Under the pieces are notes generated by a model. The model worked only from the letters and a program-made list of their open reading frames with translations. It did no database searches and was not told the DNA's origin. A stretch of 64,000 nucleotides of DNA from Isoptericola jiangsuensis (GTDB lineage: Bacteria; Actinomycetota; Actinomycetes; Actinomycetales; Cellulomonadaceae). Made by a program: the position numbers and the translations under genes. The stretch lies in the NCBI RefSeq assembly GCF_002563715.1, contig NZ_PDJJ01000001.1, positions 3,906,001 to 3,970,000 of the forward strand. The letters run 5' to 3'. Below, piece by piece: positions 4,575 through 60,504 of the stretch (positions within the stretch are counted from its first letter, which is position 1; each line of letters begins with the position of its first letter).

Positions 4575-4581
4575 CCCTCTT

Positions 4582-4653
4582 CACGCAACGAGCGCGCTGA
4601 CTCGGTACCTCAAGCAAGAGTTTGAGGTACCGAGTCAGCGCGCTCGTCGCGTG
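4582..4653. terminator. Very long hairpin with embedded CGAGTCAGCGC motif
   Basis: Between convergent genes. Arms 4582-4613 and 4622-4653 are 32 nt each and complementary except for one mismatched pair (4587/4648); the loop is 8 nt. Each arm contains the 11-bp GCGCTGACTCG/CGAGTCAGCGC motif that forms the 20-bp-phased arrays elsewhere in the window, joined to GGTACCTCAA. Position suggests a bidirectional terminator, but the stem is far longer than needed for one. Confidence 0.6.
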
Positions 4654-4722
4654 AGGAGGGGGGACGGCGACGGCCCGGCCGGACGCCGTGGAGGCATCGG
4701 ACCGGGCCGTCGAACCCGCCGG

Positions 4723-7205: not shown

Positions 7206-7250
7206 CGTCACGAGGTGGTCACGGACCGCAGCCCTACCGCTGCAGACGCA

Positions 7251-7311
7251 GACGAGCGTGCCGACCGTCCCGTCATCCGTCGTCGATGAGGGGACGGCCG
7301 GCACGCTCGTC
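7251..7311. terminator. Long imperfect hairpin
   Basis: GACGAGCGTGCCG at 7251-7263 pairs with CGGCACGCTCGTC ending at about 7311, and an inner CCGTCCC/GGGACGG pairing shortens the loop. It lies between the upstream region of the heptad-repeat gene and the nucleotidase terminator. It may be a second transcription stop or a structured spacer. Confidence 0.4.
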
Positions 7312-7334
7312 GGCAGGACGGACCGCGAGGGCCC

Positions 7335-19658: not shown

Positions 19659-20876
19659 ATGACCACCCAGCAGCCCACCTTCGACCCCCGTCGCGCCTCG
19701 ATCATCCTGGCCGCGATGGCCACCTCGACGTTCCTGTTCGTGACCGTCGAGTCCCTGCCGTCCGGGCTGCTCACCCTCATGGCACCCGACCTCGGCCGCA
19801 GTACCTCCGAGATCGGGCTCCTCGTCACCGCGTACGCGCTCGTCGTCCTCGTGTCGTCGGTGCCGCTGGCGTGGGCGACCAGCCGCATCCCGCGTCGCTG
19901 GGTGCTGTCCGCGTGCTGCGGCGTCGCCGCCGTCGCCACCCTGTGGGCGGCCCTCACGCCGTCGTACGAGCAGCTCATGGCCGCGCGGCTCGTCACCGGG
20001 CTCGCCCAGGCGCTGTTCTGGGTCGCGGTCGTCCCCGCCACCCTCGGCCTGTTCCCGCCGCTCGTCCGCGGCCGCGCCATGTCCCGGCTGGCGGTCGGCA
20101 ACTCCCTCGCGCCGCTGCTCGGCGTCCCGCTGGGCACGTGGCTCGGCGAGCAGACCAGCTGGCGCGTCACCTTCGCCGCCGTCGCCGCGCTCTCCGCCGT
20201 CGTCATGGTCATCGTGCTCGTCCTGTTCCCCACCGTCGCACCCCGGGCCGGCGGCGCCGCCCAAGCCCCCCACCCCAGCGGCCGGCGCTTCGGGTTCCAG
20301 CTCGTCACCACCGTCCTCGTCGTCACCGGCGCGTTCGGCGTCATCACGTTCGGCACCCAGTACCTCCAGGACGTCACCGGGTTCACCCAGTCCGACATCC
20401 CCGCCCTGCTGCTCGTCCAGGGCGGGGCCGGGGTCGTCGGCGCGCTCGTCGTCGGCCGCTACCTCGACCGCTACCCCGCGGCGGCCCTCGTCGTCGCCGT
20501 CACCACGTACGCCGTGGGAGTCCTGGGCCTGTGGGCCCTCGGCGAGAACAAGGTCGCCGCCGTCGCCTTCCTCGTCGTGTGCGGCCTGTCGTTCTCGACC
20601 GTCCCGCCCGCGCTGTCCCACCGGGTCATGCTCGTCGCCCCACGTGGCACGACGATGGCGCAGGCCGTCGCGTCGTCCACGTTCAACCTCGGCATCGCCG
20701 CCGGGTCCGCCCTCGGCGCGCTCCTCGTCGCCGTCGTCGACGTGCGCGTCGTCCCCCTCGTCGCCGCCGTCCTCGTCCTCCTCGCGCTCGCCGTCCTCCT
20801 GCTCGAGGAACGCCTCAACGCGCCGCTCGGCACCGTCGTCGAGCACGTCGAGGAGGCCGTCGCGCGCGAGTCCTGA
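19659..20876 (+). CDS. MFS transporter, DHA1 drug-efflux type
   Basis: 405-residue integral membrane protein with about 12 hydrophobic helices. The first half shows the order typical of AraJ/Cmx/PbuE-like DHA1 exporters: ESLPSGLLTLMAPDLGRSTSEIGLLVTAYALVV, then TSRIPRRWVL (motif A region) and LVTGLAQALFWVAVVPATLG (motif C-like). Substrate is unknown; efflux of a toxic compound, sugar or nucleoside is plausible. It is transcribed divergently from the LacI regulator with a leaderless promoter and flanked by phased repeat arrays on both sides. Confidence 0.88.
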   Translation: MTTQQPTFDPRRASIILAAMATSTFLFVTVESLPSGLLTLMAPDLGRSTSEIGLLVTAYALVVLVSSVPLAWATSRIPRRWVLSACCGVAAVATLWAALTPSYEQLMAARLVTGLAQALFWVAVVPATLGLFPPLVRGRAMSRLAVGNSLAPLLGVPLGTWLGEQTSWRVTFAAVAALSAVVMVIVLVLFPTVAPRAGGAAQAPHPSGRRFGFQLVTTVLVVTGAFGVITFGTQYLQDVTGFTQSDIPALLLVQGGAGVVGALVVGRYLDRYPAAALVVAVTTYAVGVLGLWALGENKVAAVAFLVVCGLSFSTVPPALSHRVMLVAPRGTTMAQAVASSTFNLGIAAGSALGALLVAVVDVRVVPLVAAVLVLLALAVLLLEERLNAPLGTVVEHVEEAVARES

Positions 20877-53279: not shown

Positions 53280-54537
53280 ATGACGCGACGACGCCTCCTC
53301 ACCGCTGCCACGGCGCCTGGCCGTGGCCCTGTCCAGCACGTTCGTCCCCCTGGCCGCGAGCGCCCACGGCCGCGGCGACGCCCCGGGACGCGACCCGCAC
53401 GGCCACGGCGCGGACCGTGCGCTGCGGGTCGCGACGTACAACCTGTCCCTGAACCGCGCGACGGAGGGCGGTCTGGTCGCGGACCTGTCGTCGCCCGACG
53501 ACGCGCAGGCGCGCACGGTGGCGGAGGTGATCCAGCGGGCGGCACCGGACGTGGTGCTGCTCAACGAGTTCGACTTCGACGCCGAGGGCCGGGCGGTGGA
53601 CCTGTTCCGGGAGAACTACCTGGAGGTGTCGCAGGGCGGCGCGGACCCGGTGCGCTACCCGTATGCGTACTCGGCGCCGTCGAACACGGGGGTGGCGAGC
53701 GGGTTCGACCTGAACAACGACGGGACGGTCGGCGGGGGTGACGACGCGTTCGGGTTCGGCCTGTTCGAGGGGCAGTACGGGATGGTGGTGCTGTCGCGGT
53801 ACCCGATCGACACGCGCAAGGTGCGCACGTTCCAGCACTTCCTGTGGAAGGACGTGCCGGGGGCTGCGCTGCCGGACGACCCGTCGACGGACGCGCCGGC
53901 GGACTGGTTCTCCCCGGAGGAGCTGGAGGTCGTGCGGCTGTCCAGCAAGTCGCACTGGGACGTGCCGGTGCGGGTGGGCCGCGAGACGGTGCACGTGCTG
54001 GCGTCGCACCCGACGCCGCCGACGTTCGACGGTCCGGAGGACCGCAACGGGCGCCGCAACCACGACGAGATCCGGTTCTGGGCCGACTACGCGACGGGCG
54101 GGGCGACGGCGCGGTACGTGTACGACGACGCAGGTCGGCGGGGCGGGCTGCCGCGCGGTGCGAGCTTCGTCGTCGTCGGGGACCAGAACGCGGACCCGCA
54201 CGACGGCGACTCGTTCGACGGGGCGATCGACCAGCTCCTGGGGAACCGTCGGGTGACGGACCCGATGCCGACGTCGCAGGGCGCGGTGGAGGCGGCCGTG
54301 CTGCAGGGCGGCGCGAACCTGACGCACACCGGGGACCCGGCGCTCGACACGGCGGACTTCGCGGACGGCGCCCCCGGCAACCTGCGCGCCGACTACGTGC
54401 TGCCGTCCCGGGACCTACGGGTGCGTGACGCGGGCGTGTTCTGGCCGACGCTCGCGGACCCCCTGTCCCGCCTGACGGGCGTGTACCCGTTCCCGTCGAG
54501 CGACCACCGGCTGGTGTGGGTGGACCTGGCTCTCTGA
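53280..54537 (+). pseudogene. Secreted endonuclease/exonuclease/phosphatase protein, frameshifted signal peptide
   Basis: The catalytic body is intact: ALRVATYNLSLNRATEGGL, VVLLNEFDFD (metal-binding Glu), YGMVVLSRYPI, HVLASHPTPPTF, SFVVVGDQNADP and a final FPSSDHRLVWVDL. Together these mark an EEP-family phosphoesterase or nuclease of about 400 residues with a FNNDG-like calcium-type loop (FDLNNDGTVGGGDD). A leaderless promoter and ATG at 53280 give MTRRRLLTAATA, a good signal-peptide start. The rest of that signal peptide (LAVALSSTFVPLAASAHG) is in another frame, beginning near 53316. The span is one nt over a multiple of three. Starting at GTG 53323 would leave no charged N-region. Either a real frameshift or an assembly indel; the enzyme may otherwise be functional. 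Confidence 0.75.
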
Positions 54538-54609
54538 CCCGCGCCGCCGGTCGTCCCCGGGGGCCGGGCGGTGGCCGAGCCCCGGGGGGCGTCGGGCACG
54601 CGGGTCCGG

Positions 54610-55119
54610 TCAGGACCGGGTGGCGTCGATCCAGTACCGGCGCCGCAGGATGCCGTCGTCGGTGCGGCGGTGGTCCTCCAGCACGCCGCCGCACGCCTCG
54701 ATGACGGCGGCGGAGGCGAGGTTGTCGTCGTCGCACGTGACCAGGACGCGGTCGACGCCCGACCCGGCGAGGCGCTCCACGGACTGCCGGAGCACCTCGC
54801 GGGCGTGCCCGCGGCCGCGGTGCTCCCGGCCGACGGCGTAGCCGACGTGCCCGCCGACCTCCCGCAGGAACTCGTTCAGCTCGTACCGGATCGACACGCG
54901 CCCCACCGGGACCCCGTCGACATCGGCGACGAGGAAGTCCGCGCGGACCCGCCCGGGCGGCAGGTCGACGCCCGCGGCCTCGCGCCCCCAGGTCGCGAGC
55001 ATCTCGTCCCACGGGCCGTCGGCGAGGAGGAACGGGAAGTCCTCGGTGGCGAGCTCGGCGTGGAGGCGCCGGAGTACGGGCTCGTCGGCGACGGTGGGCG
55101 GGCGCAGGATCAGCGTCAT
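54610..55119 (-). CDS. GNAT acetyltransferase
   Basis: 169-residue single-domain acetyltransferase. Characteristic parts are MTLILRPPTVADEPVLRRLHAEL at the start, HVGYAVGREHRGRGHAREVLRQS as acetyl-CoA-binding motif (R-x-x-G-x-A) and DDDNLASAAVIEACGG (motif B region). Its closest general type is the small-molecule or aminoglycoside-like GNATs; substrate unknown. ATG 55119 is chosen over a 12-residue longer frame. It lies 85 bp downstream of oleD on the same strand and could be read through from it. Confidence 0.87.
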   Translation of the reverse strand: MTLILRPPTVADEPVLRRLHAELATEDFPFLLADGPWDEMLATWGREAAGVDLPPGRVRADFLVADVDGVPVGRVSIRYELNEFLREVGGHVGYAVGREHRGRGHAREVLRQSVERLAGSGVDRVLVTCDDDNLASAAVIEACGGVLEDHRRTDDGILRRRYWIDATRS

Positions 55120-55204
55120 CGGTCGAGTGTGGCTCGGGGGCGGTGCACCGTGCACGTGCTTTCCGGACGGCGGCGGATGGGCCGCCCGGTCGGCGGGAGG
55201 GCGG

Positions 55205-56266
55205 TCAGCGGGCGGTGCCGCCGTAGTGCGCGGCGAGCCGCCGGAACCCCTCGTCGATGCTGACGGCGGGCCGCCAGTGCAGGTCGGCGTGGGTGGCGCG
55301 CTGGTCGAACCAGTGGGCGGTGGAGAGCTGTTCGGCGAGGAACCGGGTCATGGGCGGCTCGTCGGTGCCGGGCCGCACCTGCCACAGCCTCTCGACGAGC
55401 CCGCCGGCGCCGCGGGCGATCCCGGCGGGCACGCGCCACCGCGGCGGTTCGACGCCGCCGGCGCGGCAGATGCCGGCGAGCAGGTCGGCGACGGTGCGCG
55501 GCTCGCCGTTGGTGAGGACGTACGCGCGGCCGTGGACGGCCTCGGCGCGGTCGAGGGCGGCGACGATCCCGTCGGCGGCGTTGTCCAGGTAGGTCGTGTC
55601 GATGAGGGCGGCGCCGTGGCCGAGCAGCGGGAGCCGGCCCGACGCGGCGCGGTCGAGCACCCGTTCGACGAGCTGGGTGTCCCCCGGCCCCCACACGATG
55701 TGCGGTCGGACGGCGACGACGCTGAACCCGTCCCCCGTCGAGCGTCTCTGAAAGTCCGGCTCGGAGGGCTGATGCGGGACTTTCAGAGAAGCTCGCCGCC
55801 CGACGGCTGCGGGGCCGCGGTCCCGCGACAGCGCCAGCAGCTCGGACGCGGCCTTGGTGCGCGCGTACTCGCCGCGGGCGCGGGCCGGGTCGGCGGCCTC
55901 CGCGCCCGCACCGACGAGCGACGACCCGGCGTGCGCGACCGACGGCGACGACACCTGCACGAACCGCGTCACCCCGGCCCGGTCGGCCGCGTCGAGCAGC
56001 CGGCGGGTGCCCTCGACGTTGACGGCCTCAAACTCCGCCGGGTCGCCCGCGAGCGACACCTTCGCGGCGAGGTGCACGACGGCGGTGACGCCGTCGAGCG
56101 CGGCGGCCACGGCCGCGGGATCGGAGAGGGATCCGGCCGCGTCCTCGACGCCGGCCACCCCGGAGGTGCGGCGCTGGAACGTGCGCACGGTGTCGCCGCG
56201 CTCGGCGAGGACGCGGGCGACGGACCCGCCGAGCAGCCCGGACGCGCCGGTGACCAGCACCGTCAC
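55205..56266 (-). CDS. oleD: OleD, 2-alkyl-3-ketoacyl ketone reductase, with palindromic-element insert
   Basis: 353-residue NAD(P)-dependent extended SDR. The dinucleotide site is VLVTGASGLLGG (residues 3-14), catalytic YxxxK is Y134-ARTK138 and VRPHIVWGPGD follows. In olefin synthesis it reduces the 2-alkyl-3-keto acid made by OleA to the 3-hydroxy acid used by OleC. GTG 56266 overlaps the oleBC stop (GTGA). Residues about 157-177 (RRASLKV ... PDFQRRST) are encoded by a 59-bp palindromic element and break the loop between the active-site helix and the strand FSVVAVRP, where homologues have no insert to my knowledge. The frame stays open through it. The effect on activity is unknown. Confidence 0.88.
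   Translation of the reverse strand: MTVLVTGASGLLGGSVARVLAERGDTVRTFQRRTSGVAGVEDAAGSLSDPAAVAAALDGVTAVVHLAAKVSLAGDPAEFEAVNVEGTRRLLDAADRAGVTRFVQVSSPSVAHAGSSLVGAGAEAADPARARGEYARTKAASELLALSRDRGPAAVGRRASLKVPHQPSEPDFQRRSTGDGFSVVAVRPHIVWGPGDTQLVERVLDRAASGRLPLLGHGAALIDTTYLDNAADGIVAALDRAEAVHGRAYVLTNGEPRTVADLLAGICRAGGVEPPRWRVPAGIARGAGGLVERLWQVRPGTDEPPMTRFLAEQLSTAHWFDQRATHADLHWRPAVSIDEGFRRLAAHYGGTAR
55738..55796. repeat. Palindromic element copy A, in frame within oleD
   Basis: Arms 55739-55758 (CGAGCGTCTCTGAAAGTCCG) and 55776-55795 are inverted copies with two differences, around a 17-bp loop. On the oleD strand it encodes RRASLKV, then a variable middle, then PDFQRRST. It shares arms and reading frame with copy B at 59048-59108. 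Confidence 0.85.
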
Positions 56267-59196
56267 GGCTCGCCCACCCCGCCCCCGGCGAGCACGCCGG
56301 ACGCCCACGCGGCGAGCCTCGCGCGGTCGATCTTGGAGTTGTGGCGCACGTCGGTCGGCATCTGCGGCAGCACGAGGACGGCGGCGAGCGGCACGGGCGA
56401 CGACGCGCGCACGTCCGCGGCGACGTCGTCGGGCGCGAGCCCCGGACGTCGTGCAGGCGGGACCGTCTCGACGACGGCGACCGCCTGCTGCACCCCCGCG
56501 GGGCCGACCCCGACGACCGCGGCGCGACGCACGCCCTCGGCCCGCTCCACGCCCTGCTCGGGACCCACGGGGGCGAGCGGACCGTCGGCCGTCACCAGGA
56601 CGTGCGCGAGCCGTCCCTCGATCCACAGGCGGCCGTCGGCGTCGAGGTGCCCGACGTCGCCGGTGCGGTGCCAGTGTCCCGGCGGGGTGTCCCGCTCGGC
56701 GGCGACGTCCGTGAGCCACAGCCGGTCGTACCGCTCCTTGAGGTGCGGCGCGCTGACCAGCACCTCCCCCAGCACGCCGGGGATGTCCGACGGCGTGCCG
56801 ACGGCGGCGCCGGAGTCGTCGAGCGCGCTGACGAGCACCCGCCCCCCGCCGACGGGGCGGCCGACGCACACCCCGGCGTCGGGTGCCGCCGCGGCGGCGC
56901 GCACCCCGTCGAGCGTGACGTCGGTGACGAGCAGGCACTCCGTCATCCCGTACGGCGTGTGCGGCGTCGCCCCGGGCATGAGCTGCTGCGCGGACGTCAG
57001 CAGGGCCTCGCTGATGGGCGCCCCGGTGGACAGGAACGTCTCGACGCGGCCGAGGGCGTCGCGGTCGTCGGCGTCGAGCCCGCCCGCGGTGTCGACCACG
57101 TTCAGGATCGCCGCCGGGGACAGGAACACGATGCGCGCGTCCGACGCCGTCACGGCGTCCGCGACGGCCCGCGCCGTGAGGGTGCGCGGTGCGGACACGT
57201 CCATGTCGGGGGTCACCGAGCGGGTGCCGAGCGCGGGGCCGAGCAGCGCGAAGGGCGCGAACCCCGTCACCAGGCCCGTGTCGGGGCCGACGTCGAAGTG
57301 TCGCGCGAGGGCGTCCCGCAGGGCCGCGAGCCGGGCGTGCGTGTACACGACGCCCTTCGCCGGACCGGTCGACCCGGACGTGAACAGCACGGCCGCCTCG
57401 TCGTCAGGACCGGGTTCCGGCGGCAGGTCCAGCACGTCCCCGGCGCGGGCGACGTCGACCAGCTCGTGGTCCACCCCGAGCGCGCGCCGCACCACCGGGT
57501 CGAGCGGGTCGGCGGAGATCCGCACACCCGGCCAGCCGAACGCCCGCGCCGCCGCGAGCGCCTTCGTCTGCCCGACCAGGTAGCCGGGCCACGCGCCCCG
57601 CTGGGCGCGCGTCAGGCCCTTCACGCCGAGACCGGCGTCGGCGACGACGACCACGGCCCCGATCCGCAGGCACGCGTAGACGAGCGCGGTGAGGGTCGGC
57701 CCGGGCTGCACGAGCAGCGACACGCGGTCGCCGCGCCGCACCCCGATGCCGTGCAGCCCCGCGGCGATGCGCCGCACCTGCCGGTCCAGCGCCCGCCAGC
57801 TCACGCTCGCCGGTCCCGACCCGGACTGGTCCAGCACGGCGGGCTCCCCCGCCGTCGACGACGCGGCGCGCTCGTCCAGCCCGGCCCACATCGGCCGGAA
57901 CCCAGCCGGATCGGCGCCGTCGACGACCGCGGACGTGCTCTCGTCGCCCGGTCCCGCCGTACCCGAGGTGAGGTCGTCGCCCGCCGCGCCGAGGCCGAGG
58001 CCCGAGGCGACGGCCGCATCCGAGCCGGCCGGGTCGGACGTCGCAGGCGCGGACGTCAGTCCCGAGGTGGAGGGCCCCCCGGGGCCCGTGAACGCGTCCG
58101 CGCGCGCGACGCCCGGGCTGGCCGGCGACCCGACCACGGCGCCGGGGCCCACGGCCGTCCCCAACCAGTCGAGGACGGGCCCCGCGACGTCGACGTCCTC
58201 CGCGACGAGGTGCCCGGCGCCCGCGAAGCGGTGGACGCGGGCGTGCGGGAGGCGGTGCACGAGGTCGTCGAGGTACCGGTCGGAGAAGATCGGGTCGTGC
58301 GGGCCCCACAGCATCAGGGCGGGCACGGTGAGGCGGGCGACGCCCGCCGCGACACGGTCGAGCTCGGTGCGGCTGGGGTGGTCGGCCGTGGCGGGGATGT
58401 CGGCGACGAACTGCTCGATCCCGGCGCGGTCGGCGGCGGTGCGGTAGGGCAGCCGGTAGGCGTCGGCGACGTCGTGGGGCAGCCGGGGCCGGGCGAGCGC
58501 GAGGGTGGTCTCCAGGAACGCGCGGGTCGTGGAGGTGCCGAGGCGGTGCACGCCGCGGGCGAGCGCGAGGCGCAACGGCGCGGGGATCGGGACGCCGTCG
58601 GGCTGGTGCACGGCGGTGTTGAGGAGTGCGACGCCGGCGAGCTGCTCGGGGTGGTCGACGGCCCAGCCGAGGGAGACGACGCCGCCCCAGTCGTGGCCGA
58701 GGGTGACGACGGGGCCGTCGAGGCCGAGGGCGTCGGTGAAGGCGCCGAGGTCGCCGACGCGGTCGGCGAGGGTGCGGCGCCGGCCGGTGCGGGCGGACAG
58801 GCCCATGTCGAGCTGGTCGACGGCGACGACGCGCCACGCGCCGGGGACGGCTCCGGGGTGTTCCCCGGTGGCGGCCGCGGCCTCGAGGGCGCGGTCCGTG
58901 GCGAGCGCCACGACGTCCCGCCACAGGTACGACCAGGTGGGGTTGCCGTGCACGGCCAGGACGGTGCCGACGGGCGTGATGCCGTGCGCGGCGAGGACGG
59001 GCCCGTTGTCGAGGTGGTGCCACTCGACGTCGTCGCCGTCCTCGACCGTCGAGCGTCTCTGAACGTCCGGATCCGGGGCCCCGTGCCGGACTTTCAGAGA
59101 CGCTCGACGGGCCGCGGGGACGGTCAGGACGTGGCTGAAGCGCACGTCGAGGCCCGGGAGCCCGGGCGGGACCGGGCTCGCGGTACGGGTCGTCAC
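56263..59196 (-). CDS. oleBC: OleBC fusion: beta-lactone decarboxylase and beta-lactone synthetase
   Basis: 977-residue fusion. Residues 1-300 are OleB, a haloalkane-dehalogenase-like alpha/beta hydrolase (HGNPTWSYLW; nucleophile Asp169 in LGHDWGG; LMLWGPHDPIF; late His in GAGHLVAEDV) that decarboxylates the beta-lactone to the cis-olefin. A Gly/Ser/Pro/Ala linker covers about 310-400. The rest is OleC, an AMP-ligase-fold beta-lactone synthetase with P-loop LFTSGSTGPAKG (about 600), TPYGMTE and GHWHRTGDVGHLDADGRLWIEGR. This fusion is known from Micrococcus-type actinobacteria. GTG 59196 overlaps the oleA stop. Residues about 30-50 (RRASLKV ... DVQRRST) come from an in-frame palindromic element in the first strand-turn of OleB. 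Confidence 0.92.
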   Translation of the reverse strand: MTTRTASPVPPGLPGLDVRFSHVLTVPAARRASLKVRHGAPDPDVQRRSTVEDGDDVEWHHLDNGPVLAAHGITPVGTVLAVHGNPTWSYLWRDVVALATDRALEAAAATGEHPGAVPGAWRVVAVDQLDMGLSARTGRRRTLADRVGDLGAFTDALGLDGPVVTLGHDWGGVVSLGWAVDHPEQLAGVALLNTAVHQPDGVPIPAPLRLALARGVHRLGTSTTRAFLETTLALARPRLPHDVADAYRLPYRTAADRAGIEQFVADIPATADHPSRTELDRVAAGVARLTVPALMLWGPHDPIFSDRYLDDLVHRLPHARVHRFAGAGHLVAEDVDVAGPVLDWLGTAVGPGAVVGSPASPGVARADAFTGPGGPSTSGLTSAPATSDPAGSDAAVASGLGLGAAGDDLTSGTAGPGDESTSAVVDGADPAGFRPMWAGLDERAASSTAGEPAVLDQSGSGPASVSWRALDRQVRRIAAGLHGIGVRRGDRVSLLVQPGPTLTALVYACLRIGAVVVVADAGLGVKGLTRAQRGAWPGYLVGQTKALAAARAFGWPGVRISADPLDPVVRRALGVDHELVDVARAGDVLDLPPEPGPDDEAAVLFTSGSTGPAKGVVYTHARLAALRDALARHFDVGPDTGLVTGFAPFALLGPALGTRSVTPDMDVSAPRTLTARAVADAVTASDARIVFLSPAAILNVVDTAGGLDADDRDALGRVETFLSTGAPISEALLTSAQQLMPGATPHTPYGMTECLLVTDVTLDGVRAAAAAPDAGVCVGRPVGGGRVLVSALDDSGAAVGTPSDIPGVLGEVLVSAPHLKERYDRLWLTDVAAERDTPPGHWHRTGDVGHLDADGRLWIEGRLAHVLVTADGPLAPVGPEQGVERAEGVRRAAVVGVGPAGVQQAVAVVETVPPARRPGLAPDDVAADVRASSPVPLAAVLVLPQMPTDVRHNSKIDRARLAAWASGVLAGGGVGEP
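59048..59108. repeat. Palindromic element copy B, in frame within oleBC
   Basis: Arms 59048-59070 and 59086-59108 (23 nt each, one mismatch) enclose a 15-bp loop. The arm core TCTCTGAA(A/C)GTCCGG is the same as in copy A. On the oleBC strand it encodes RRASLKV, a variable middle, then PDVQRRST, in the same frame as in oleD. Confidence 0.88.
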
Positions 59197-60215
59197 CAGG
59201 CCAGCTCCATCATCGCCGTGTTGATGCCGGAGCCGACGCCCATGAGCAGGACGCGGTCGCCCGTCCGCAGGGACTCCTGCTCGTGGGCGAGCGTGATCGG
59301 GACGGACGCGGGCCCGACGTTGCCCAGGGTGGGGAACGTGGTGGGGACCTTGGCGCGGTCCAGCCCGACCGCCTCGGTGATGGCACGGGTGTGCACCTTG
59401 GACACCTGGTGGGTGACGTACCGGTCCATCGTGCCCCAGTCCCACTCGGCGACGGCGTCCTTCCAGGCGTCGACGACGAGCTCGAGCCCGCCCTCGAGCA
59501 GCGCCTGCGCGTCGGTGAACATCCCGTCGGTGCTGCCGACGCAGAGGGCGTGGTGCCGGGTCGCGGCGCGGGTGACGCCCCCGAGGACACGGTGCCCCTC
59601 GGGGTGCTCGTCGGCGCGGCCGAGGACGGCGGCCGCGGCCCCGGAGCCGAGGGTGAGGGTGGCGAACTCCGCCATGAAGTCGTCGCGGCCGGCGTCACCG
59701 CGCAGCAGCCGGTCGACGGTCACGTCCTGGATGTCGTCGGCGTCCTCCCCGTTCACGATGACGGCGTAGCGGATCTGCCCGGACTCGATCATGCCCGCGG
59801 CGATGCTCATGCCGTTGATGAACCCGAGGCACGCGTTCGCGACGTCGAAGTTCACCGCGGAGCTCGGCAGCCCGAGGCCGTGGTGCAGCCCCACGGCGAC
59901 GGACGGCTCCAGGTGCTTGCGCGTGACCGACGTGTTGATGAGCAGCCCGACGTCGCTGGGGTCGACACCCGCGACGCGCAGCGCGTCCTCGCCGGCGGCG
60001 ACGGTCGCGGACGTCACGTCCTCGCCCGGCGCCCAGGCGCGCCGCTCGTGCACCCCGGCGACGCGCTGGAGCAACGTGCGCGGCAGGCCGAGGCGCCGCA
60101 GCGCGGGCGCGAGCCGGTCCTGCACGTCGGCGGACGTGCGTACCCCACCGGGCAGGCGGCTCTGCACGGACAGCAGCGAGACGTTGCCGAACCGGGTGGT
60201 GGCGTTCCCTGTCAC
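59193..60215 (-). CDS. oleA: OleA, acyl-CoA head-to-head condensing thiolase
   Basis: 340-residue thiolase-superfamily enzyme that joins two fatty acyl-CoAs to a 2-alkyl-3-ketoalkanoic acid, the first step of long-chain olefin synthesis. Catalytic Cys129 is in FDVANACLGFINGM, Glu103 in RKHLEPSVA (the OleA-specific base), His in YVTHQVSKVH and Asn in FPTLGNVGPAS. GTG 60215 has GGAGC 5 nt upstream and a further GGAGG. It is the first gene of oleA-oleBC-oleD, with 4-bp overlaps at both junctions, so the pathway is made from one coupled message. Upstream lies phased repeat array 4. Confidence 0.93.
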   Translation of the reverse strand: MTGNATTRFGNVSLLSVQSRLPGGVRTSADVQDRLAPALRRLGLPRTLLQRVAGVHERRAWAPGEDVTSATVAAGEDALRVAGVDPSDVGLLINTSVTRKHLEPSVAVGLHHGLGLPSSAVNFDVANACLGFINGMSIAAGMIESGQIRYAVIVNGEDADDIQDVTVDRLLRGDAGRDDFMAEFATLTLGSGAAAAVLGRADEHPEGHRVLGGVTRAATRHHALCVGSTDGMFTDAQALLEGGLELVVDAWKDAVAEWDWGTMDRYVTHQVSKVHTRAITEAVGLDRAKVPTTFPTLGNVGPASVPITLAHEQESLRTGDRVLLMGVGSGINTAMMELAW

Positions 60216-60405
60216 ACGAGCTCCAGACCTCCGGGAGACGGGGCGCCCGGAACGACAGCAGTTCACCGGCTCACCTGCTCAGGTGTCCGGCACGGCGGGC
60301 GTGACGACACCCGTCATCGAGAGTAGGACGACCGGCGCCGCCGCGCCGTTCCAATCCACCATGTGTGCGCGGCGTCTCCCCGAGAGGGGGCAGGGTCGCC
60401 GGGTC

Positions 60406-60490
60406 CAGCGCTGACTCGCGGGAACCTGCGCTGACTCGGCGGATCCGGCGCTGACTCGCGAGTCAGCGCTCGTCGGCGCGAGTCAGCGCT
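60406..60490. repeat. Phased 20-bp array 4 with central palindrome
   Basis: Three GCGCTGACTCG units at about 60408, 60428 and 60448, then two inverted CGAGTCAGCGC units at 60459 and 60479, all on 20-bp spacing within each orientation. Where the orientation flips (60448-60469) the two cores abut as a 22-bp perfect palindrome. The array fills the divergent gap between oleA and the aldolase gene, ending 15 bp before a -10 box. Confidence 0.85.
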
Positions 60491-60504
60491 CGTCCCGGCG
60501 CGCT

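Follow-up and report, generated by a model that had tools for sequence, protein, structure and literature searches.

REPs are described in Di Nocera 2013 (PMC3733652) as dispersed extragenic palindromes located near the 3' ends of genes, often between convergent genes. According to the same text, they sometimes supply the stop codon and sometimes lie inside genes. In the GTAG REPs the enzyme gene is often flanked by the repeats; the CGTC REPs seem to be without a dedicated transposase. The main text of that paper contains no word beginning with 'actino'. A second kind of palindrome, the RPE, lies inside genes, and the parts of PMC10969869 and PMC3767692 which deal with it describe an unbroken frame, a conserved peptide and an insertion site that is common to orthologues.

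The palindrome family analysed here resembles the REPs in being extragenic and near the 3' ends of genes, often between convergent genes (38/87 copies). It resembles the RPEs in its in-frame insertion with a conserved peptide, observed in oleD, oleB and a glycosyltransferase gene in one frame. The differences are also clear. REPs have a size of 20-40 bp and an unpaired GTAG or CGTC tag, whereas the present elements are of 57-65 bp, symmetric and tagless. The enzyme of the REPtron is a Y1 tyrosine transposase, whereas the gene bracketed here encodes a putative AbiEi/PD-(D/E)XK nuclease and Y1 is absent from the 18 genus genomes. RPEs, in the passages cited above, are about 100-150 bp long and belong to another phylum and presumably another sequence, the likeness being one of description; unlike the RPEs, the present peptide changes in concert with the species dialect, and an association with a nuclease was found. 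The two inserts in the ole genes are probably solo copies of a nuclease-associated palindromic repeat, having a layout like that of a REPtron with an unrelated enzyme.

The window, which is the whole stretch of 64,000 nucleotides analysed, contains an operon with two such elements. Its features are the following.

55735..55799, peptide read on the minus strand: palindromic element of 65 bp in frame inside oleD (covariance model R1, 74.4 bits)
59046..59110, peptide read on the minus strand: palindromic element of 65 bp in frame near the OleB start of the oleBC fusion (covariance model R1, 84.2 bits)
55205..56266, minus strand: oleD, host of the first element, NAD-dependent epimerase/dehydratase family (Pfam Epimerase, E 3.8e-31)
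56263..59202, minus strand: oleBC fusion, host of the second element, alpha/beta hydrolase and AMP-binding (Pfam Abhydrolase_1, AMP-binding)
59196..60215, minus strand: oleA-like gene (thiolase/KAS III) belonging to the same operon (Pfam ACP_syn_III_C, E 3.4e-15)
58024..58126: inverted-repeat segment I8 in the OleB-OleC linker, related to another genus-wide hairpin repeat and aligning to three pieces of the own genome (G000)

The operon was assigned on the basis of Pfam matches to thiolase-like, hydrolase/AMP-binding and epimerase proteins, and its genes are those which we take to be oleA to oleD. The preliminary description had reported two near-identical inverted-repeat elements in oleD and oleBC; both are present, and the length given there as 59-61 bp has to be corrected to 65 bp for each. 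The minus-strand translation bore out the reading proposed for them: the element of oleD encodes RRASLKVPHQPSEPDFQRRST and that of oleBC encodes RRASLKVRHGAPDPDVQRRST in OleB, both in the same phase as RRASLKV...PD(F/V)QRRST. The opposite strand also gives RRASLKV/RRASLNV in the same phase, as had been claimed. A second frame, read from the sequence, is likewise open in both copies, so that an open frame alone is nothing special. Placement of both peptides in surface loops had been expected; this is suggested for OleD only, through the length variation among the OleD sequences compared. The arm TCTCTGAAAGTCCGG matched the window four times at up to 2 mismatches, a number reached in 0 of 100 shuffles, and the predicted RNA fold of 59038-59118, comprising the oleBC element, had an energy of -59.7 kcal/mol (z -7.1). 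In the Rfam search of seven loci the sole match was a sub-threshold MIR4374 over the oleB element, and this identity was rejected as probably an artefact of the long hairpin.

Two further repeats were observed in and beside the operon. The segment at 58024-58126 is read through in oleBC as a Gly/Pro/Ser-rich linker; the hairpin repeat of this type, GTCAGACCCGAAGTGGAGGGCCCCCTGGGGCCCGTGAACGCGAC, has many matches in the genus and in G000 often forms inverted pairs about 200-600 bp apart. Units resembling GCGCTGACTCGCG, about 20 bp apart and in both orientations, form long palindromes in intergenic arrays at 60396-60500, at L258-L260 and at G003:1668632-1668723, G003 being the closest relative of G000 in the genus set.

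The dispersal of the family was analysed in the own genome and in the relatives. G000 (4,041,252 bases, one contig) carries about 20 copies. Arm matches at up to 1 mismatch numbered 31 genome-wide against 0 for the reversed control, so the further copies foreseen by the preliminary description exist, and their absence, which it had named as a refuting outcome, did not occur. The outer 11-mer GAGCGTCTCTG occurred exactly 32 times in G000 (control 0): 14 elements had both arms exact with arm starts 44 bp apart, and four other exact occurrences belonged to elements with one imperfect arm. The covariance model built from 17 G000 copies gave matches at E <=1 in 18 of 18 genus genomes, those in G015, G016 and G017 being weak only. 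A second, broader model at E 1e-4 revealed elements in 24 of 150 family genomes and in 5 of 25 genera; 15 of these 24 genomes belong to the genus, none was found in G017, and G015 and G016 are absent among the matches listed. A subset of the existing copies, 87 in number, was fetched and studied. The pattern scan of viral contigs gave 0 matches, and that of genome contigs, from which the own genome was possibly left out, gave one contig of Thermoleophilia, whose 50-bp hairpin looks related but was set aside as probably a chance match. The window itself also holds a more distant candidate.

7249..7313: diverged palindrome outside genes, belonging to the family or to a sister family (GACGAGCGTGCCGACCGTCC...), R1 38.6 bits, E 8e-8, palindrome score 21

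The 57-bp core consists of two inverted CGAGCGTCTCTG arms that enclose an interior of constant 33 nt, which contains complementary arms of its own. This interior was found in 85 of 85 copies anchored on both arms, 2 of the 87 being not anchored. In the alignment of 49 of the 87 copies, 20 of 29 pairs had changed on both sides. The covariation score was 0.354 compared to 0.114 in shuffles; the observed value was reached in 0 of 500 shuffles on any of the five measures, and all five dropped when the partner was slid by 1-3 columns. Across the genus the outer arms hardly vary, and the inner arms are largely species-specific. The identity of the inner 9-nt arm was 0.50 for 41 orthologous pairs and also 0.50 for non-orthologous cross-genome pairs, while for paralogues within a genome it was 0.79 and exceeded the orthologous value in 39 of 41 pairs; these pairs share sites, and the computed p values therefore overstate. 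The two arms of one copy agreed at 0.894 compared to 0.767 for arms of different copies in the same genome. Judged by their sequences, the elements are under concerted evolution together with palindrome upkeep, the copies being homogenised per species.

The gene context of the 87 copies was taken from our own codon-usage gene calls. The calls placed 38 copies between convergent genes, 25 between tandem and 14 between divergent genes, with 8 in a gene and 2 unassigned; most of the copies studied lie just behind stop codons. Between the stem and a stop codon facing it, 102 distances were measured; their median was 15 bp, 82 of them falling within 2-41 bp, and in five cases the gene terminates at a TGA supplied by the first arm. 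One such TGA was observed in G003 at the end of a gene (L097, 1574-2197) which we take to be GNAT-like; at the equivalent junction G000 has an unrelated GC-rich stretch resembling an inverted repeat.

These positions bear on the reading of the palindromes as functional RNA hairpins which are situated at gene ends and act as bidirectional terminators or 3'-end stabilisers, with the in-gene copies being stray and the nuclease genes merely tending to have such borders. The convergent (38/87) and tandem (25/87) copies and the short stop-to-stem distances (82/102 within 2-41 bp) are in accordance with it, as are the very stable folds, the compensatory changes and the similar siting of REPs given in PMC3733652. 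We consider it unlikely, however, as no terminator-like site (hairpin and T-run) was found in 54500-60500, the span of both elements, and a terminator role leaves unexplained the within-genome homogenisation, the in-gene copies and the occurrence of matched pairs round nucleases but round few other genes. In addition, G-U was counted by us in only 13 of 490 cells of the variable stem columns 19-28, with 47 cells unpaired. So few G-U pairs would be less expected of one RNA strand than of a DNA palindrome or hairpin, or of transcription from both strands.

The position of the listed copies along the chromosome was also analysed, and they concentrate in the origin-proximal half in G000, G003, G006, G014, G026 and G050. 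Among the copies listed, the median relative distance from dnaA was 0.15 in G000 (n=20, KS p 9e-5), 0.19 in G003 (n=20, p 4e-6), 0.26 in G006 (n=11, p 0.02) and 0.09 in G014 (n=4, p 0.003). For another genus the bias had p 0.01 in G026 (n=11) and p 0.005 in G050 (n=23), again for the copies listed, and G066 of the same genus (n=20) showed no origin bias (p 0.64). Sites of a chromosome-organising protein, with copies clustering round the replication origin, would produce such a bias in these six genomes, and yet we give hardly any credence to this explanation. The bias is missing in G066, merging of copies within 10 kb weakens the G000 test to p 0.008, and the shared sites are not independent. 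Moreover, the matches in G015 and G017 are weak, the half-sites of a protein need no base-pairing inner arms, and a higher gene dosage near the origin could by itself bias insertion.

Two sites hold one element in one genome and two in another. At G000:354822-357046 (L007/L009) the two elements are separated by 2.1 kb containing a MerR-like regulator gene and further genes, presumably transketolase halves; G003 has a single element there and none of this DNA. At G006:1125348-1127100 (L116) the two elements are separated by 1.6 kb with what is presumably a relaxase-like fragment, and G000 has a single element and no such DNA. This suggests exchange between the repeats, recombination having added or removed the intervening DNA.

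The eight in-gene copies represent four sites, namely oleD (G000), oleB (G000 and G003), the glycosyltransferase gene (four genomes) and a weak one in G005. All four are in the same phase, read as R-A-S-L...Q-R-R-S (P-A-S-L in one weak copy); four sites, of which one (L077) is weak, are too few for a frame-bias test. L006 was dropped as an in-gene copy after it was found between tandem genes. The OleD, OleB and glycosyltransferase orthologues were compared within the genus. The alignment proposed by the preliminary description for OleD and OleB revealed insert-free relatives in 14 of 17 and 14 of 16 parsed genus genomes, respectively. G007 has an insert at the same place of OleD in its own dialect (ARASLSV...DEQRRS), G012 has in our reading a probable remnant, and the OleB insert was present only in G000 and G003. 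With a glycosyltransferase query lacking the insert, the match was continuous in 14 of 18 genomes, and it was split in two in the four insert-bearing ones. The junction was readable in 15 of 18 genomes, with the insert in 4 (G000, G003, G001 and G006) and none in 11. The inserted peptide at this common site differs by species, being RRASLKVRPGGPMTDLQRRST in G000 compared to RRASLFLRSRPLNPEEQRRST in G006. As the in-gene copies are absent from most relatives in the genus, they are insertions. The earlier idea of mobile palindromes tolerated in frame is thereby supported, by the additional copies in the genome as well as by the genus relatives without inserts.

A conventional mover was looked for by way of the Y1 profile, target-site duplications and the outer arms. 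The linked REP-type transposase (RAYT), for which the preliminary description had proposed a search, did not appear: Y1/RAYT PF01797 was found in 0 of 18 genus genomes, in a search whose controls gave signal in 5 of 14 genomes. Target-site duplications, proposed likewise as a check, fared no better, since direct repeats of at least 5 bp lie beside 9 of 85 copies with about 5.5 expected from paired flanks of different copies, and there is thus no clear excess. The flanks extend the palindrome by at least 3 bases in 51 of 85 copies (about 21 expected), and the flank columns contain no conserved unpaired tag. All 32 exact GAGCGTCTCTG occurrences lie in 65-bp-type elements of short fixed spacing, so an autonomous copy of greater length with exactly these ends is lacking in G000. 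A MITE of a DDE transposon is expected to have a target-site duplication and an autonomous element with the same ends; neither was found, the latter result being for G000 only. It is very unlikely on these grounds that the family is of a conventional MITE, REP or RPE-like kind and owes its movement to an ordinary transposase, although the dispersed, patchy and species-specific copies and the in-frame insertion do resemble RPEs and REPs. No Y1 transposase was found in 18 of 18 genomes, target-site duplications are not in clear excess, and the exact outer arms of G000 are confined to short elements.

The reading of the family as a nuclease-associated repeat begins with one gene. Two family copies (L015/L016 in G000), orthologous in G000, G003, G001, G006 and G007, bracket this gene, which in G000 is located at 3554081-3555052. 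Residues 10-184 of its protein matched the AbiEi model (PADLOC E 8e-10), and its C-terminus matched the restriction-endonuclease-like MTES_1575 below the Pfam cut-off; among four nucleases scanned, Pfam AbiEi_4 was above cut-off only in L206. The residues E209, D240 and E254-x-D256 and an R-Q-N motif are invariant in 18 aligned homologues. The product is predicted to be an AbiEi-like DNA-binding part joined to a PD-(D/E)XK nuclease, the domain assignments being weak in Pfam. No relative of the nuclease was found in the PDB by sequence or profile at E <=1, three nucleases gave no match in NCBIfam, and no relatives of the G000 nuclease were found in viral contigs, plasmids and phages.

Homologues of the nuclease at E 1e-20 were present in 79 of 150 family genomes. 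By element content, nuclease matches were found in 22 of 24 element-bearing genomes (not in G012 and G092) compared to 57 of 126 element-free ones, the counts being uncorrected for phylogeny. The same palindrome family also brackets the nuclease in the genomes G026, G020 and G044, which belong to other genera. At two further loci, another one of G026 and one of G050, the bracketing palindromes match the model weakly, and those of this other G026 locus are a pair of different sequence. A DAHP synthase gene adjoins the family-bracketed nuclease gene in the genera g1, g10 and g4, so that the module looks inherited in place. In the genus, each of the five genomes that contain the family-bracketed module has at least 13 copies, and the 11 other genus genomes counted have 0-5, except G014 with about 13 (copies being taken as half the number of matches listed). 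Two genomes speak against a nuclease-driven process: G014 has its copies without the family-bracketed module, and in G012 copies are present although no nuclease was found at E 1e-20.

Among known systems the type IV toxin-antitoxin protein AbiEi is comparable, as the N-terminal part here matches AbiEi models. Unlike AbiEi antitoxins, this part is seemingly fused to a nuclease domain, and at the L181 locus the neighbours are sigma factor and DAHP synthase genes, with no AbiEii partner. The palindromes may then be operator sites of an AbiEi-type toxin-antitoxin system or of an autoregulatory nuclease, with the solo copies being a scattered regulon or decoys. The AbiEi match over residues 10-184 and the position of one L181 palindrome, 56 bp upstream of the gene match, favour this. 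We regard it as highly improbable, since the second L181 palindrome lies at the stop codon, most solo copies lie behind genes, only 14 of 87 are between divergent genes and the in-gene copies would be poor operators.

The association between nuclease and palindrome was then compared over 54 nuclease homologue loci, chosen among the matches listed. Strong palindromes occurred on both sides of 32 of these loci compared to 0 of 500 random window pairs. The 176 predicted genes used as controls, of 600-1500 bp and taken from the window and 340 kb of G003, included 7 with both-sided palindromes, one being a further nuclease (AbiEi/MTES_1575-like, Pfam E about 0.001-0.002). A matched pair (similarity >20) was present at 35 of 54 loci compared to 2 of 176 genes, one of which is that further nuclease (Fisher p 3e-25). 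Either pattern was found at 38 loci and neither at 16. Stricter windows used earlier, which start after the stop codon, had given 23 of 54 loci compared to 2 of 300 controls; as the downstream palindrome often reached into the end of the gene, the windows were then moved so as to include its last 90 bases, and were shortened, for loci and controls alike. Clustering of 52 nucleases at 60% identity gave 23 clusters, of which 14 have a both-sided example and 18 show either pattern. The palindromes vary between clusters, and some differ even inside the largest one. Closer nucleases have closer palindromes (Mantel r 0.28, 46 loci, 0 of 2000 permutations), the correlation being modest, and below about 55% nuclease identity the palindromes look unrelated. 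The matched palindromes could be the operator and terminator of the nuclease gene. As a separate observation, the flanking windows of the MFS transporter gene at window 19659-20876 share a similar stretch (score 32) with no palindrome.

A palindrome of a second family lies in the window.

4575..4660: solo palindrome with CGCTGACTCGGTACCTCAA arms, representing a second family, palindrome score 33, directly behind the stop codon of the upstream gene

An arm type similar to it brackets a second nuclease gene of G000 (G000:1013991-1014935, L209). This nuclease A, with its palindrome pair, occupies a SURF1/ABC transporter junction, and the same junction in G003 holds the remote nuclease B (1655156-1656178) with a different palindrome pair, the two nucleases having 32% identity over part of their length. 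In G003 a remote AbiEi/REase-like gene with a GAGATCGACCCTCCCGG palindrome pair (L246 15064-16268) is located where G000 has another nuclease module. G003 gave one nuclease match at E 1e-20, beside the DAHP synthase gene. Solo family-A-like arms were found at window 4575-4660 and at G003 1563327 and 1597624, in the stretches examined. As the SURF1/ABC transporter junction of G000 and G003 indicates, one intergenic site can apparently hold rival nuclease-palindrome modules.

In homing endonuclease genes a site-specific nuclease could drive copying by break repair, which would explain the conversion of sites. The present modules differ from these in having no intron or intein, in offering many target sites which are the repeat itself, and in their AbiEi-like part and long palindromes. 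We infer that the nuclease may move or homogenise the palindromes in a comparable way. It would recognise its palindrome in duplex, cruciform or single-strand hairpin form, cutting at or near it. Break repair would then copy palindromes to new places and overwrite old copies, giving rise to the species dialects. Harmless copies would persist, namely those that follow stop codons and, in rare cases, those that lengthen a variable loop by about 19-22 codons. In-frame insertion is possible in either orientation because the element is symmetric and 19 codons long. Extending this to the whole group, we lean slightly towards the view that AbiEi-like/PD-(D/E)XK nucleases serve a new class of selfish DNA as its enzymes. 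In this view most lineages would have a long palindrome of their own, which would bracket the nuclease gene, give rise to solo copies over the chromosome (some of them in frame inside genes) and be kept uniform within the species by cut-and-copy conversion. Titles and abstract beginnings in the open-access PMC literature returned nothing on a link between nuclease and palindrome, which is no proof of absence in print.

The spread of short bacterial palindromes without a known transposase is an open question, for which PMC3733652 names the CGTC REPs as a case. A nuclease bracketed by its cognate palindromes would give a testable answer to it, and would at the same time assign a candidate function to uncharacterised nucleases that form a widespread group. 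Through the species dialects, the homogenising process can be measured directly. For the proteins of these bacteria, the elements may represent a way in which coding sequence acquires loops of about 20 codons, and these loops later change together genome-wide.
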